A stretch of DNA of 64,000 bases. It comes from Oricola thermophila (GTDB lineage Bacteria; Pseudomonadota; Alphaproteobacteria; Rhizobiales; Rhizobiaceae). The notes beneath the pieces were generated by a model, which was not told the origin of the DNA, ran no database searches, and saw only the letters and a program-made list of their open reading frames with translations. Positions 23,574 through 29,835 of the stretch are shown one piece after another; the first letter of the stretch is position 1, and each line of letters starts with the position of its first letter. The DNA is taken from NCBI RefSeq assembly GCF_013358405.1, contig NZ_CP054836.1, positions 2,914,001 to 2,978,000 of the forward strand, read 5' to 3'. Both the position numbers and the translations under genes were made by a program.

Positions 23574-23610
23574 AGAAAACAAAACCGCCGCATGGCGGAC
23601 CATGCGGCGG
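23574..23610 (-). terminator. Strong intrinsic terminator, minus strand
   Basis: ccgccgcatgg (23585-23595) and ccatgcggcgg (23600-23610) form a perfect 11-bp stem with a cgga loop. On the minus strand it is followed by TTTTGTTTT. No annotated minus-strand gene ends upstream of it, so it may end a small RNA or a transcript starting in the 23.6-23.8 kb gap. It sits about 75 bases before the dipeptidase start. Confidence 0.7.
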
Positions 23611-23626
23611 AAACTCGAAAAGGTTC

Positions 23627-23664
23627 AAAAAGTGGCAGCCCGGAGAGGGGGATTAGGCTGCCAC
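23627..23664 (-). terminator. Second terminator-like hairpin, minus strand
   Basis: gtggcagcc (23632-23640) and ggctgccac (23656-23664) form a 9-bp stem with a 15-base loop. On the minus strand it is followed by TTTTTGAACC. It lies 17 bases upstream of the stronger terminator, so the pair could be the structured body and terminator of a small RNA. Confidence 0.55.
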
Positions 23665-24030
23665 CTGTCCGGATCGGCGGGGGACGGGCCTTAGCCGGAC
23701 ATCGGCGCAATATGCCGATTAACGATTTGTCCCACATGAGTGTGGCATAAAAGGGGCAATTTGCACGTTGTGCGGCACCTGTTAACTTTACGTCATGCAG
23801 GACCGGGCAAGGCTGGCGTAAAAGGCAAGGCCGGGCATCTCCATGTTCCGTCCGCCGGGCACCGTTTCCACCCTGGCCGAGTCGTTACAGCGTGCAAGAC
23901 AATGTGAGCGCGTGTATCAGTCATCGCACTTGTAGAAATCAATCGTCGGCGCTTCAAGAACGAGAAGCGTACAACCGGGCCAATTCAACCGGCGGCACGA
24001 GCCGCCGAAGCGAGATTTCGAGGGAATTAC

Positions 24031-27000
24031 ATGTGTGGCATTGCGGGATTCGTAACCGGCGCATTCGACGCCCGGCAGGCCGACACCGGCTGGCTCGCCG
24101 CGCTGTCCGCCGAAATCTCGGCGGCACCGCCCGGCCTTGCTGCCGTTGAGACCCTGCAAGCGGCGGTCGGCACGCTGGAAGAGCGATTCGCCGACCTCAT
24201 GAGCTTCGACACCGGGCTTGCCGTCGCCTTCGACGGCGAGTTCCGCCGGAAGGCCGTCGCGCTCGCCGACGCGTTCAAGGCCCAGGTCGAGGCGCTCACC
24301 GAACTTTCGAGAAGCGGCCGGACGGACCTCGATCCGCTGATCGAGAGCCTGCGCGACTACGAATGGCAGATCCGCGAGGAACTGGTGGCGCAGACGGGAG
24401 AGGCCGTCGCGCTGATGCCCGCCGACATGAAGTCGCTCGACGGCAACGCCGCGAAGGTGGCGCTGGCGACCGAACATGTCCTGCGGGCGAATGACCGCCT
24501 CGAGGTGCGCGGTCGCGACTCCGCCGGCATCGCGATCCAGATCCAGGTGCCGCAAACGGCCATTGCGGCTCTCTCAGCCGAACTGAAGGCCGAATACGAG
24601 AAGCGGAGCGCCGCTCTGCACGCGGACCACCTGGCCGTCTATTTCCACGAAAACGGCGGCGCCACGGCCACGCTGACATTCGTCTTCAAGACCGCGAACC
24701 TGGTCGGACGCCTCGGCGACAACGGCGCCGCGCTGCGCGAAACGATCAGGAACGACCACCTGCTTTGGACGCTGGCGGGCGAGGCGCGGCGGGCGGGCGT
24801 GCTGTCGCACACGCGATGGGCGTCGCACGGCATCATCTCGGTGGCCAACTGCCACCCGCACAACCCGTCCGTGAAACAGGACGAGACCGGCAGCAGCGGC
24901 ATCCCGCTCGGCGCGATGTACGCGCTCAACGGCGACGTCGACAATCACATGGAACTGCTCGCCGAACTGGTGACGAACCGGCAGATGGCCATCGATCCGG
25001 CCATAACCACCGACGCGAAGATCATCCCGATCGCGCATCGCAGCGCGGGCGCCGAGGGCGGCGACCTGCTGGACCGGTTCCGCACCGCGATCCGCCGCCT
25101 CGACGGCTCGATCGCCGTCGGCTGCATCGATCCCGGCCGGCCCGGCGAGGCGTTCCTGGCGCAGAAGGGATCGGGCCAGGGGCTCCACGCGGCGCGGCTG
25201 GCCGACGGCTGGATGTTCGCATCCGAGGTCTACGGCCTGTGCAACGTGGCGCGCGCATCCTACAACCTCGCCCGCTCGGTCGCCGGCGGCTCGGTCATCC
25301 AGCTCGACGGCGACAGCGACACGCCGGTCATGCGCGGCGTTTCCGACGGCACTCCGGCAACGGTGAACGCCGAGCCGATCCAGATATTCGCACGCGACAT
25401 CTATCGCGGCCATTTCGACTTCTATCTCGAGAAGGAAATCCACGACGGGCCGGAAAGCGTCGCCAAGACGCTGCGCGGGCGCTACCGCCGCGACGGCGGG
25501 CTGGTCGCCTTCGACAACCTGCCGACGGACATCTGGGCGCAGATGCGCAAGGCCGTCGCCAAGGGCATCGCCCGCGTCTACGTGATCGGCCAGGGAACGG
25601 CCGGCGTCGCTGCCGTCGGCATCGCCCACCTGATCGAGCGCGCACTCGGCCAGGACACGCGGCTGGACATCGCCGTGACCGCAAGGCGTTCCTCGGAGAT
25701 GTCGGCGGAGATCGACGCCTACGACTTCCGCAACGCGCTGGTGATCGCGGTGTCGCAGTCCGGCACGACGACGGACACCAACCGCGCGGTCGATCTCGCG
25801 CGCGAACGCGGGGCAACCATCCATGCCATCGTCAACCGGCGCAATTCCGACCTGGTGCGCAAGGCCGATTCCGTGCTGTTCACCTCCGACGGGCGAGACG
25901 TGGAAATGTCCGTCGCCTCGACCAAGGCATTCTACTCCCAGCTGACCGCCGGCAAGCTGACCGCGCTTTTCCTGGCCGACGCGCTCAACACGATGACCGA
26001 TGTCGAGATCGCCTACGAGATGGGCGAACTGGAGCGGCTGCCCAGCCTGATCGCGCAGGTGCTGGAAAATGAAGACCACATCGCCGAATGCGCGCGCTCC
26101 TTCGCGCCGCAGGCGCGCTACTGGGCGGTCACCGGCTCCGGCGTCAACCATGTCGCCGCGCTGGAAATCCGCATCAAGCTCTCCGAGCTCTGCTACAAGT
26201 CCATTCCCGTCGACTACACGGAAGACAAGAAGCACATCGACCTCTCGACCGAACCGCTGACGCTGGTCATCGCCAACGACCTGCCGGGCGATCTCGTCGG
26301 CGACGTGGTCAAGGAAGTGGCGATCTTCAAGGCGCATAACGGCCGCCCGATCGTGTTCGCGACCGAGGGCGACGACGCCGCGGCGTTCGCCGAATACGCG
26401 GAACGGGTGATCGCGCTGCCAAAGATCGGCGGCGACCTCGCCTTCGTGCTGGCCACGGTCGCGGGGCACATGTTCGGTTTCCATGCCGCGCGCGCCATCG
26501 ACCGCGCGGCGCAACTGCTCAAGCCGATCCTCACGGATCTGGGCCATGTCGCCATGGGCGACCGGGCCGCCGACCGGACCGCCGTGCTCGAAAGGCTCGA
26601 CGCCTTCATCGACGAGGGTGCCGCGGGCGCCTTCAACTCCGGCCTCGGCGCCAACGACCTGGCCATGCTCGCCAAGCTCGGCCGCGAACTCGGCCGGGCC
26701 GCCGATGCCGACGCGGCACGCGCCGTGGCGGAAGCCGCGATCGGGCGGGTGCGCCACACATTCGAGGAAACATCGCGCCCGATCGACACGATCCGGCACC
26801 AGGCCAAGACGGTCACCGTCGGCACCAGCCGGCCGGAGGACGCGCTTTCGCCGGCAATCCGCGACGCGCTGGCCGAACTCGGCGTCGCCGACTCGCGCCT
26901 TTCCTTCGACAATCGCAAGGTGCTCGCCGCCGTTTCGCGGCTCATCGACACCATCGAGTGGACCGCGCAGATGTCGGTGGAACAGGCCAAGGACGGGCCA

Positions 27001-27414
27001 CAGGTGCGGCTCGAAGGCAGCGCGCCCTCGCCCGCGATGGAACCCTATTCGGAACCGGCGAAACCGCTCGGCGTGCTGGGTTCCGCGCTCGACGACAACA
27101 CCGTGCATGCCGGCTACCTGGGCGATGCGGCAGTCATCGCCGTGCCGGTCAACAATGCCGCCTACTCGGAAGTGGATTCGCTGATCTGCTTCGCGGTCAG
27201 GCTGCAGGCCCACGCCTCGCGCGAGCAGAAGGCGGCCGCCATGACGGCGCTTGGCACCTACAAGCCGGCACTGCGCGAATGGGAACAGGTGTTCGGCGAG
27301 GATGCCGCGTCGGCGCTGGCGCGCCAGATCGCGCGCGAAACGCCCGAGAACATCGTGTTCCGGCCCAAGGTCCTCGACCCGGCACTAAGCCGGGACGAAC
27401 GGCAGAGCGCGTAG
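24031..27414 (+). CDS. Giant GlmS-like glutamine amidotransferase/SIS protein
   Basis: 1127 residues against about 610 for ordinary GlmS (glutamine:fructose-6-P aminotransferase). The N-terminal MCGIAGFV supplies the Ntn nucleophile Cys2. A ~150-residue insert separates it from RGRDSAGIAI (160-169), then HTRWASHG (260-267) and LNGDVDNH (299-306). Two SIS domains follow (about 505-650, with AVSQSGTTTDTNRAV, and about 695-815, with LEIRIKLSELCYKSIPVDYT). A stretch RHQAKTVTV near 922-930 resembles the GlmS C-terminal tail carrying the Schiff-base Lys, but ~200 further residues follow. The usual E-L-K-H-G-P segment reads EDKKHIDLS, so substrate may differ. GAGGG precedes the ATG. It converges with the ManC-AGE gene, 35 bases away. 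Confidence 0.85.
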   Translation: MCGIAGFVTGAFDARQADTGWLAALSAEISAAPPGLAAVETLQAAVGTLEERFADLMSFDTGLAVAFDGEFRRKAVALADAFKAQVEALTELSRSGRTDLDPLIESLRDYEWQIREELVAQTGEAVALMPADMKSLDGNAAKVALATEHVLRANDRLEVRGRDSAGIAIQIQVPQTAIAALSAELKAEYEKRSAALHADHLAVYFHENGGATATLTFVFKTANLVGRLGDNGAALRETIRNDHLLWTLAGEARRAGVLSHTRWASHGIISVANCHPHNPSVKQDETGSSGIPLGAMYALNGDVDNHMELLAELVTNRQMAIDPAITTDAKIIPIAHRSAGAEGGDLLDRFRTAIRRLDGSIAVGCIDPGRPGEAFLAQKGSGQGLHAARLADGWMFASEVYGLCNVARASYNLARSVAGGSVIQLDGDSDTPVMRGVSDGTPATVNAEPIQIFARDIYRGHFDFYLEKEIHDGPESVAKTLRGRYRRDGGLVAFDNLPTDIWAQMRKAVAKGIARVYVIGQGTAGVAAVGIAHLIERALGQDTRLDIAVTARRSSEMSAEIDAYDFRNALVIAVSQSGTTTDTNRAVDLARERGATIHAIVNRRNSDLVRKADSVLFTSDGRDVEMSVASTKAFYSQLTAGKLTALFLADALNTMTDVEIAYEMGELERLPSLIAQVLENEDHIAECARSFAPQARYWAVTGSGVNHVAALEIRIKLSELCYKSIPVDYTEDKKHIDLSTEPLTLVIANDLPGDLVGDVVKEVAIFKAHNGRPIVFATEGDDAAAFAEYAERVIALPKIGGDLAFVLATVAGHMFGFHAARAIDRAAQLLKPILTDLGHVAMGDRAADRTAVLERLDAFIDEGAAGAFNSGLGANDLAMLAKLGRELGRAADADAARAVAEAAIGRVRHTFEETSRPIDTIRHQAKTVTVGTSRPEDALSPAIRDALAELGVADSRLSFDNRKVLAAVSRLIDTIEWTAQMSVEQAKDGPQVRLEGSAPSPAMEPYSEPAKPLGVLGSALDDNTVHAGYLGDAAVIAVPVNNAAYSEVDSLICFAVRLQAHASREQKAAAMTALGTYKPALREWEQVFGEDAASALARQIARETPENIVFRPKVLDPALSRDERQSA

Positions 27415-27449: not shown

Positions 27450-29660
27450 CTAGCGGGAACCCGCATACTCCGCCAGCGCGCAGAAGACGTGGTAGAAGCT
27501 CGATGACGGCATGTCGGGGGCGATCACCTGGCCCTCGTCGTCGATGGCATCGTACCAGCCGCCCGGCACCGGGCCGTTGAGATAGTGCGAGAACAGCACG
27601 TCAAACATGCGCCGGCGCAACGCCGCGGCGGGGCCGAGGCCCCGCTTCTCGAAGGCGAGGGAAACCTTGAGCGCCTCAGTCTGCGGCCAGAGCCGGGCAT
27701 GCGGCTCCACGGCCGACCCGTCCGGCTGCATGCCGTCGGCGGCGGCGCCCGTCGCCGGATGATGGCCGAAGGTGGCGGCGGTGGCAAAGAGCTGGCGCGC
27801 CTTGGCGCCGACATCCGGCGTATCGCGATGATCGAGATAGCGCGTGATCAGCCAGGCCCATTCGTAGTGGTGGCCCGGCTCGATGCGGGTCTCCTCGGCC
27901 GAGTTGCGGCTGCGCGACCAGTCGGCATGGAAATATTCCGACAGCGTGCCCGTCGCCTCGTCGAAGAAGTGGCGGTCGAACAGCATGACCATCGCCTGCG
28001 CGCGGTCGAGATACTTCTCCTCGCCGGTCGCCTCGTACCAGGCCATCATGGCCTCGAGGAAATGCATGTGCGGATTGGCGCGGCGCGGAAGCTTGCGGCC
28101 GTCGGTCTCGTAGAACCCGCCATGGGCGTGGTCGGCGAGATTCCGGTCCATGTAGTCGAGCGTCCAGTCGGCCCATTCGCGCGCCTCGGCCCGGCCGGTC
28201 GCCCGGTAGAGCCATGCCAGCCCGAACAGGACGAAGCAGTGGTCATAGGTATCGCGGGTCTCGTCCTGGACGCTGCCGTCGGGATTGAACAGGTGGATCC
28301 AGCCGCCATCGGGATGCCAGCCGGTGCGGGTCAGCGTTTCGAAGCAGTGGTCCAGGATGCCGTCGGCATCGCCCTCCCAGCCCATGAGCTTCGCGTGGGA
28401 GAAGCAGTAGATCTGCCGCGCCAGCACGCGCAGGCGCTTGTAGGGCAGCGGCGCCGGCGTGCCGTCGAAATTCAGCGCCTCGTGCACGCCGCCATGGACC
28501 CGGTCCACCCCCTTCTCGGCCCAGAACGGCAGGGCCGTCTCGAACAGCCAGGACCGAACGGTGGAGGGGTGGCTGTCGTCGCCGCGAGCCTTGAAGGCCA
28601 GGGTGACGTCCTTGACCAGGTGGGTGCGGTCGCGCGCGGTGACCAGAATCTTGTTGTCCTCGGCCACGACGACCAGATCGCGCACGCCGGCAATGGCCAC
28701 CGTGGCGCCACGCGCGCGCACCAGGTTGCCGTCTGCATCGACGGTGATGACGTCGCCGGACACGGCATTGGCGCGATCGTCCTTCGGCGCGGCCTCGTAG
28801 AGCTGCGCCCAGGAACCGAGATCGTCCCAGTCGAAGCGCGCGGGCACGACGCCGATATTGCCGGCCTCCTCCATGATTGCGTAGTCGATCGACAGTTTCG
28901 GCGAGGCGGCGAAGCTCTCCGGGTCGAGCACCAGCTTGCGGCCGTCGCGCGCGCCCTCGCGAACGGCCTTGCGCGCGCACTCCCAGATTCGCGGCTGAAG
29001 GCGGGCATACTCGGCGGCGAGGCGGCCGGCCCGGAACAGGAATATGCCGGCATTCCAGAAGAAGCTGCCGCTGCGCAGGTAGTGCTCCGCCGTCTCAAGG
29101 TCCGGCTTCTCGCGGAAACGGATGACGCGGAAGCCATCGCCCAGCGGCTCGCCCTTCTCGATATAGCCGTACTGCGTCTCGGCGCGGGACGGCGGAATGC
29201 CGATGGTCATGATCGCATCGGTCTCCCGCGCCACGCGGGCGGCGGCCGCGACCGTGTCCTGGAAACCGGCGATGTCGTCGATGCGGGCATCCGACGGCAG
29301 GACGATGACCAGCTCGTCGGGATTCGTCTCCGCGACGGTGGCGATGGCGGCGGCGATGGCGGCCGCGGTATCGCGGATGCAGGGCTCGAGAACCAGAACC
29401 TGCGGCAGGACGGGCGCGCGCGCGACCTCCTTCTCGAGCGCCTCGCCGAGCGCCGCCGAGCCGATGACATGCACCGGCCGGAACGATATGCCCGGCACCA
29501 CGGGAACCATGCGCTCGATGGTGTTGACCAGCAGGCTGCGATCGTTGACGAGGGCGTGGAACTGCTTCGGCTTGTCCTCGCGGGACATCGGCCACAGGCG
29601 CGATCCCGCCCCGCCGCACAGGATCACCGGGGTCACGGTCACATCATTCTTGTTCGCCAT
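27450..29660 (-). CDS. Mannose-1-phosphate guanylyltransferase fused to AGE-type isomerase
   Basis: 736 residues with two enzyme domains. The N-terminal ~365 residues are a GDP-mannose pyrophosphorylase: VILCGGAGSRLWPMSREDKP and KQF (nucleotide binding), GSFFWNAGIFLFRAGR and FDWDDLGSWAQLY. The C-terminal ~365 residues are an AGE (N-acylglucosamine 2-epimerase/mannose isomerase) alpha-barrel with RANPHMHFLEAMMAWYEATG and EPGHHYEWAWLITRYLDHRD. In ordinary bifunctional ManC enzymes the C-terminal domain is a cupin phosphomannose isomerase; here an AGE domain takes its place, so the protein plausibly makes GDP-mannose from fructose-6-P or mannose with other enzymes (inference). The start MANKNDVTVT is chosen by fit to the family. 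Confidence 0.88.
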   Translation of the reverse strand: MANKNDVTVTPVILCGGAGSRLWPMSREDKPKQFHALVNDRSLLVNTIERMVPVVPGISFRPVHVIGSAALGEALEKEVARAPVLPQVLVLEPCIRDTAAAIAAAIATVAETNPDELVIVLPSDARIDDIAGFQDTVAAAARVARETDAIMTIGIPPSRAETQYGYIEKGEPLGDGFRVIRFREKPDLETAEHYLRSGSFFWNAGIFLFRAGRLAAEYARLQPRIWECARKAVREGARDGRKLVLDPESFAASPKLSIDYAIMEEAGNIGVVPARFDWDDLGSWAQLYEAAPKDDRANAVSGDVITVDADGNLVRARGATVAIAGVRDLVVVAEDNKILVTARDRTHLVKDVTLAFKARGDDSHPSTVRSWLFETALPFWAEKGVDRVHGGVHEALNFDGTPAPLPYKRLRVLARQIYCFSHAKLMGWEGDADGILDHCFETLTRTGWHPDGGWIHLFNPDGSVQDETRDTYDHCFVLFGLAWLYRATGRAEAREWADWTLDYMDRNLADHAHGGFYETDGRKLPRRANPHMHFLEAMMAWYEATGEEKYLDRAQAMVMLFDRHFFDEATGTLSEYFHADWSRSRNSAEETRIEPGHHYEWAWLITRYLDHRDTPDVGAKARQLFATAATFGHHPATGAAADGMQPDGSAVEPHARLWPQTEALKVSLAFEKRGLGPAAALRRRMFDVLFSHYLNGPVPGGWYDAIDDEGQVIAPDMPSSSFYHVFCALAEYAGSR

Positions 29661-29754
29661 CGTCTTCCGATCGCCAGATTTCGCAGGCGCCCCCAGGGAA
29701 CCCAATACACGTTTCAGGGCCGGCTGCCCGGTCTCGGCGCGCACGAGGCCCGCG

Positions 29755-29796
29755 CAAGAAGAAACGGCCCGTCTCCCGGTTGAGGAGACAGGCCGT
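29755..29796 (-). terminator. Intrinsic terminator of the Flp pilin gene
   Basis: acggcccgtctcc (29764-29776) and ggagacaggccgt (29784-29796) form a 13-bp stem with one mismatch and a 7-base loop. On the minus strand it is followed by TTTCTTCTT. It lies 40 bases past the pilin stop, just ahead of the ManC-AGE start. A further 16-bp palindrome (29813-29828) sits between the pilin stop and this terminator. Confidence 0.75.
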
Positions 29797-29835
29797 CCCT
29801 GATTTGTCAAGTGCCGCCGCGCGGCGGCGTATCGG

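Follow-up and report, generated by a model that had tools for sequence, protein, structure and literature searches.

A double-length class of glucosamine-6-phosphate synthase that very probably replaces GlmS in several bacterial phyla

In a 64,000-nucleotide stretch of DNA from Oricola thermophila (assembly GCF_013358405.1, contig NZ_CP054836.1, positions 2,914,001 to 2,978,000 of the forward strand; hereafter the window), we identified a single open reading frame, P0001 (24031–27414, plus strand), encoding a GlmS-type protein of 1127 residues, compared with 608 for the Escherichia coli GlmS chain. Judged from its sequence and from the genomes that carry it, this giant is in all likelihood the sole glucosamine-6-phosphate (GlcN-6-P) synthase of the bacterium and belongs to a double-length class that replaces ordinary GlmS. 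More widely, this second class of GlcN-6-P synthase very probably replaces GlmS in three phyla and in one metagenome-assembled genome (MAG) of a fourth. The product of GlmS is the first amino sugar on the way to the bacterial cell wall and supplies peptidoglycan and lipopolysaccharide synthesis; most bacteria cannot live without the enzyme, which is also a drug target. By the curated GlmS model, genomes bearing the giant seem to have no such enzyme, and recognising the class would fill this gap where metabolism is modelled for many Acidimicrobiales, Planctomycetota, Azospirillaceae and Ahrensiaceae. Searches of open-licence papers listed none that describes such an enzyme. A first-pass annotation of the window had noted the nearly doubled length and suggested a distinct aminosugar synthase or a regulated form, possibly acting on another ketose phosphate.

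Ordinary GlmS was defined as a match to the NCBIfam glmS equivalog TIGR01135 over its curated cut-off (418.05 bits), and many of the surveyed genomes are drafts or MAGs. The Oricola genome (one contig of 3,998,539 bases) gave no such match, while all 14 control genomes were positive; the second, normal glmS that the first-pass annotation had proposed to look for is thus absent at this threshold. Among 61 relatives, 54 had an ordinary enzyme, and the seven without one were a 1.4-Mb genome and the six members of the genus, each of them carrying the giant (giant in 6/6, ordinary GlmS in 0/6). Ordinary GlmS was also missing from 22 further giant-bearing genomes (0/22). In the Acidimicrobiales, here meaning the order to which the Candidatus Microthrix genome belongs (148 genomes), 94 genomes had the giant, 51 had ordinary GlmS, none had both and three had neither; a few of the 94 giants are interrupted by the end of a contig or by a break in the frame, and one of the three remaining genomes has an ordinary-type fragment. 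The phylum of the planctomycete G072 (199 genomes) was divided into 34 with the giant alone, 141 with ordinary GlmS alone, one with both (G928) and 23 with neither. Counting G072, G073 and G074 once each, 153 of the 154 giant genomes were without ordinary GlmS over the cut-off. Fisher tests of this exclusion ignore kinship and give no more than a rough guide. The 23 Planctomycetota with neither enzyme (e.g. G919 and G1040), some of which have genomes of 6–9 Mb, may carry fragments or another GlmS variant, or may be incompletely sequenced.

The giant and ordinary GlmS also exchange places within one operon. Acidimicrobiales genomes share the gene order rplM-rpsI-glmM-X-acpS-nnr-alr, where X is either the giant or ordinary GlmS (NCBIfam names glmM, holo-ACP synthase, the NAD(P)H-hydrate enzyme, alanine racemase and S9; the first gene we take to be rplM). 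Where X was the giant (23 loci: L030, L031 and L034, and 20 chosen from the 94 chiefly for their score and flanks), glmM, the gene tested, was the immediate upstream neighbour in 21, and acpS was downstream in 20. Where X was ordinary GlmS (20 loci, picked likewise from 51), glmM was found upstream in 16 and acpS downstream in 16. Several of the missing neighbours fall at contig ends. A tree built from the GlmM proteins encoded there (36 sequences) requires the genomes to change between giant and ordinary GlmS at least four times (3–5 in bootstrap replicates, against a mean of 12 after shuffling), and a giant genome lies within an ordinary group with support of 93/90 and 94/81. The starred branches of this tree force one change. 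Several swaps are likely yet unproven, since the GlmM branches that support them are unstarred and the bootstrap is unsettled.

In the giant-bearing alphaproteobacteria read, the original site of glmS is empty. Relatives of Oricola have the order glmU-glmS-(DUF502-type gene)-recG-mfd, although the gene between glmS and recG, which we take to be DUF502 and which has no NCBIfam match, is not present in all. In the best-scoring 20 of 54 ordinary loci, glmU flanks glmS in 19, with L058 as the exception. In the Oricola genome, by contrast, glmU is followed directly by recG (NCBIfam names both), and glmS and the DUF502-type gene are absent there. With the Oricola genome included, this was seen in 12/12 Ahrensiaceae-type giant genomes read, among which one shows a ∼0.6-kb gap, and glmS is likewise absent from the glmU locus in 7/7 Azospirillaceae giant genomes for which that locus was read. 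G133, a genome without the giant from the family to which the giant genomes G257 and G353 belong, retains glmU-glmS.

We examined whether the residues of the GlmS active sites are kept. The catalytic residues of GlmS are Cys1, Glu488, His504 and Lys603, as given in a review (PMC9272926) that also places subunits at 589–716 residues. In the giant, the N-terminus reads MCGIAG, and both this start and the full length recur in relatives. The Cys2 codon (24034–24036; this and all following features of the giant lie on the plus strand) supplies the Cys1-equivalent nucleophile of a glutamine amidotransferase domain in which a printed alignment pairs R73, W74, N98, G99 and D123 of E. coli with R262, W263, N300, G301 and D328. 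For the sugar site, the same alignment pairs T302, S303, S347, Q348, S349 and T352 with T523, A524, S575, Q576, S577 and T580, and E481, K485, E488 and H504 with E712, K716, E719 and H735; the segment E712-x3-K716-x2-E719 spans 26164–26187. The catalytic tail (residues 913–934, 26767–26832) contains RPIDTIRHQAKTVTVG, and its AKTVTV motif together with the structural alignment (chain residues 607/608 at model residue 931) identifies K926 as Lys603. The first-pass annotation had called this segment tail-like; it is indeed present and further carries the catalytic lysine. Across 60 distinct giants (two truncated; 68 before removal of duplicates), E481, K485, E488, K503, H504 and K603 were kept in 60/60 and Cys1 in all 58 with a letter at that position, the other two, both truncated, being gapped there. 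For 41 of the 68, Cys1 and His504 were part of the motifs by which the sequences were picked from their loci (a CG[IV] start, K.H..L and GRDSAG), and none of the 41 loci failed. The giant thus combines an N-terminal Cys with R73, N98, G99 and D123, and two SIS domains with Glu488, His504 and Lys603.

By analogy with known GlmS, and in part from general knowledge of its residues, the giant would work as a dimer. Cys2 would hydrolyse glutamine, and the ammonia would pass through a channel gated by Trp263 to a sugar site built by the two SIS domains of the dimer. There, fructose-6-phosphate is expected to be bound by Lys926 as a Schiff base and its ring to be opened by His735 from the other subunit, while Glu719 would isomerise the product to GlcN-6-P, which GlmM and GlmU would carry onward to UDP-N-acetylglucosamine.

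Several observations weigh against this assignment. TIGR01135 aligns to residues 256–822 of the giant with 217.7 bits, well under its cut-off, and a fragmentary ordinary gene below the same cut-off would have been missed in our counts. The planctomycete G928 carries both enzymes. The alphaproteobacterial giant does not lie beside glmM or glmU, either in the window or in 18 of 19 loci, the sole exception (L036) having a distant 30% match to GlmM near the giant. Close to the catalytic histidine, the loop TEDKKHIDLS (26218–26247; K734 and H735 equivalent to Lys503 and His504) aligns with AGELKHGPLA of E. coli, and the signature KH[IV]D in 60/60 giants contrasts with KHGP in 40/40 distinct ordinary GlmS (42 tried). 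As this change adjoins a catalytic residue, it leaves room for a shifted specificity. Position 303 is Ala in 59/59 giants, ordinary enzymes varying here too, Ser347 is Thr in 4/59 and Ala400 is Pro in 6/59. We dropped S303→Ala as a mark of the giants, because 40 distinct ordinary GlmS include 9 with CGTS and 20 with CGTA.

The loop and the low model score would suit an amino-sugar synthase for another ketose phosphate, with GlcN-6-P coming from scavenging or from a reversed GlcN-6-P deaminase. Stand-alone SIS proteins with open frames of 359–403 residues, possible deaminases, do occur in some giant genomes (e.g. G002, G004 and G005). This explanation is very improbable and was rejected as the lead reading because, within a single taxonomic order, the giant and ordinary GlmS take each other's place between glmM and acpS, and because its catalytic residues are invariant; most binding positions are kept as well, and only one ordinary GlmS over the cut-off occurs among the 154 giant genomes. 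The action on another ketose phosphate raised in the first-pass annotation is accordingly unsupported. The annotation had also read the fructose-6-phosphate segment as replaced: the flanking AGEL and GP do differ, but Lys503-His504 is retained, and the segment is altered rather than lost.

Synthesis of GlcN-6-P by an enlarged GlmS-type enzyme also agrees with the predicted structure. The whole GlmS fold is present in the model of the giant, with ∼600 of 608 residues aligned over model residues 2–931. The predicted local distance difference test score (pLDDT) falls below 50 at 264–274, 279–289, 627–629, 729–739, 920–937 and 1121–1127. The loops 264–274, 729–739 and 920–937 presumably hold or adjoin residues that close the GlmS active sites or cross the dimer, and their low scores would be expected from a single-chain model. 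A Pfam scan found GATase_6 (256–399) and two SIS stretches. The landmarks reported in the first-pass annotation were all recovered: Cys2, RGRDSAGI (160–167), HTRWASHG (260–267), NGDVDN (300–305), two SIS domains and AKTVTV (925–930). SIS domain 1 covers approximately residues 501–650 (25531–25980; Pfam SIS 515–645 and structure match) and SIS domain 2 approximately 651–822 (25981–26496), where the NCBIfam glmS alignment ends.

The giant has ∼520 residues beyond E. coli GlmS, mostly at four places, and the alignments and model proposed in the first-pass annotation located each of them. Its figures of about 150, 100 and 200 extra residues were about right (∼133 separate Cys2 from RGRDSAGI, ∼91 separate SIS2 from the tail, and 196 follow the tail), but a further ∼55 between RGRDSAGI and HTRW had been missed. 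Insert 1 (residues 11–145, 24061–24465) lies within the amidotransferase domain and is predicted to be all-helical, and is placed by structure alignment to GlmS. It is followed by the segment with RGRDSAGI (residues 146–175, 24466–24555; sequence alignments) and by the insert 2 region (residues 176–255, 24556–24795), which carries the motif FVYKxAxLIGRLGDN; K220, A222, G226, L228, G229, D230 and N231 are invariant in an alignment of 15 sequences. The remainder of the amidotransferase domain, with HTRWASHG, NGDVDN and D328, occupies residues 256–452 (24796–25386). Insert 3 (residues 823–912, 26497–26766), helical in the model, separates SIS2 from the catalytic tail, and the C-terminal extension (residues 935–1127, 26833–27411) forms an alpha/beta domain followed by helices. 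A recent fusion or frame error was ruled out, as named genomes show the same architecture repeatedly.

If the giant were an ordinary GlmS whose insertions are neutral or decaying, with no biology of its own, it would equally have a core folded as plain GlmS and inserts less conserved than that core. Indeed, the fraction of the modal residue was 0.38–0.49 in the extra regions, 0.56–0.69 in the core and 0.88 in the tail. There is only a slim chance that this accounts for the giant: the complete giants in the alignment share all four extra regions (the truncated L035 has no start), insert 2 holds invariant motifs, the C-terminal domain folds confidently when predicted alone (pLDDT 92.7), and all giants group together in a tree (below). 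Lower conservation of parts that nonetheless recur in complete giants is as for regulatory or assembly domains, to go by the alignment, and the inserts and C-terminal domain may have a regulatory or oligomerising role. In a fold search, the C-terminal domain gave weak matches throughout; it bears a weak resemblance to sensors of the GAF/PAS type. Allosteric control through this extension may be envisaged, and the regulated form suggested earlier stays possible because of the extra domains.

To place the class, a tree was built from 43 giants and 10 ordinary GlmS. All 43 giants fell on one side (100%), by a quick method that carries a long-branch warning, which suggests one origin rather than repeated accretion and bears out the earlier view of a distinct enlarged enzyme. 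Named genomes yielded 27 giant loci, some partial. In evenly drawn samples, the giant occurred in 3/289 genomes of the class of the window, 3/101 of the family that includes the Ahrensia kielensis genome, 27/296 of the phylum of the Microthrix genome and 35/199 of the planctomycete phylum, and one Desulfarculaceae MAG also has it. The Ahrensiaceae and Azospirillaceae giants are sisters in the tree although these families are far apart within their class, which fits horizontal transfer. No plasmid or phage record had a match covering 80% of the giant; partial GlmS-type matches occur in 325 plasmid and 21 phage records, and carriage on mobile elements was dropped.

Some giants have no Met before the catalytic Cys. 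Of the ten planctomycete giants read, four (L170, L177, L178 and L179) share an in-frame leader, roughly VRVGVDPRTC..GTIV..PRGGVVLR, in front of CGIAA, and an ATG lies 39 to 54 codons upstream of the Cys. For the Desulfarculaceae giant (L032), the only nearby start codons are 39–40 codons upstream. A GTG three codons upstream in 3/5 leader-bearing giants makes a very short leader possible; a removed propeptide is favoured because the longer leaders are alike among the planctomycetes. PurF-type amidotransferases undergo propeptide removal, and we know of no such maturation step for GlmS.

We propose, tentatively, a wider picture in which this unnamed second class controls amino-sugar flux at the protein level through its own sensor domain, has repeatedly taken over from GlmS, within the operon slot itself as well as following horizontal transfer, and in the Planctomycetota/desulfarculacean-MAG branch masks its catalytic Cys with a leader that can be cleaved off. 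Control of ordinary bacterial GlmS is mainly at the RNA level. Replacement of an essential enzyme by a double-size version in the same operon slot amounts to a natural experiment and makes the function of the extra domains directly testable.

Two neighbours of the giant in the window were noted. The small RNA ar7 (RF02342, 87.3 bits; 23579–23720, minus strand) lies ∼310 bases upstream on the opposite strand; apart from it, Rfam gave no match in the window, including none to the glmS ribozyme. On the other side, a gene at 27450–29810 (minus strand) joins a mannose-1-phosphate guanylyltransferase part to an N-acylglucosamine 2-epimerase-like part, and a similar fusion was present in 5/6 other Ahrensiaceae loci compared (not in L013).

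Among known proteins, region 171–361 of L-GDH180, the large glutamate dehydrogenase of Mycobacterium smegmatis (7jsr; PMC8175468), gave a weak match (root-mean-square deviation 5.6, 6% identity), and the catalytic domain of that enzyme is unrelated to the giant. The two-SIS enzymes NagB-II (8fdb) and E. coli tagatose-6-phosphate ketose/aldose isomerase (3c3j) share 17–19% identity with it. Both enzymes are without a glutamine amidotransferase domain, and a place for the giant among them was rejected since it has one. Human GFAT-1 (PDB 6r4e, 6r4g and others; 686–687 residues) is 21–24% identical, and its alignment ends at model residue 932, leaving residues 935–1127 of the giant without an aligned counterpart. 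With E. coli GlmS (PDB 1jxa, 2j6h; TIGR01135), the giant shares the domain order, the fold and the catalytic residues, and with ordinary GlmS the same operon slot in Acidimicrobiales. In contrast to E. coli GlmS, it has three inserts and a 196-residue C-terminal extension, KHID for KHGP, and a C-terminus other than VTVE; ordinary enzymes end in AK[ST]VTVE in 39/40 distinct sequences and AKVVTVE in one. Indirect signs liken the giant to GlmS in function, yet it departs from GlmS in its TIGR01135 score, in the 589–716 residue size, in the tail as the end of the chain and in KHGP, and is therefore regarded here as a sister class of GlmS, outside the curated glmS equivalog.
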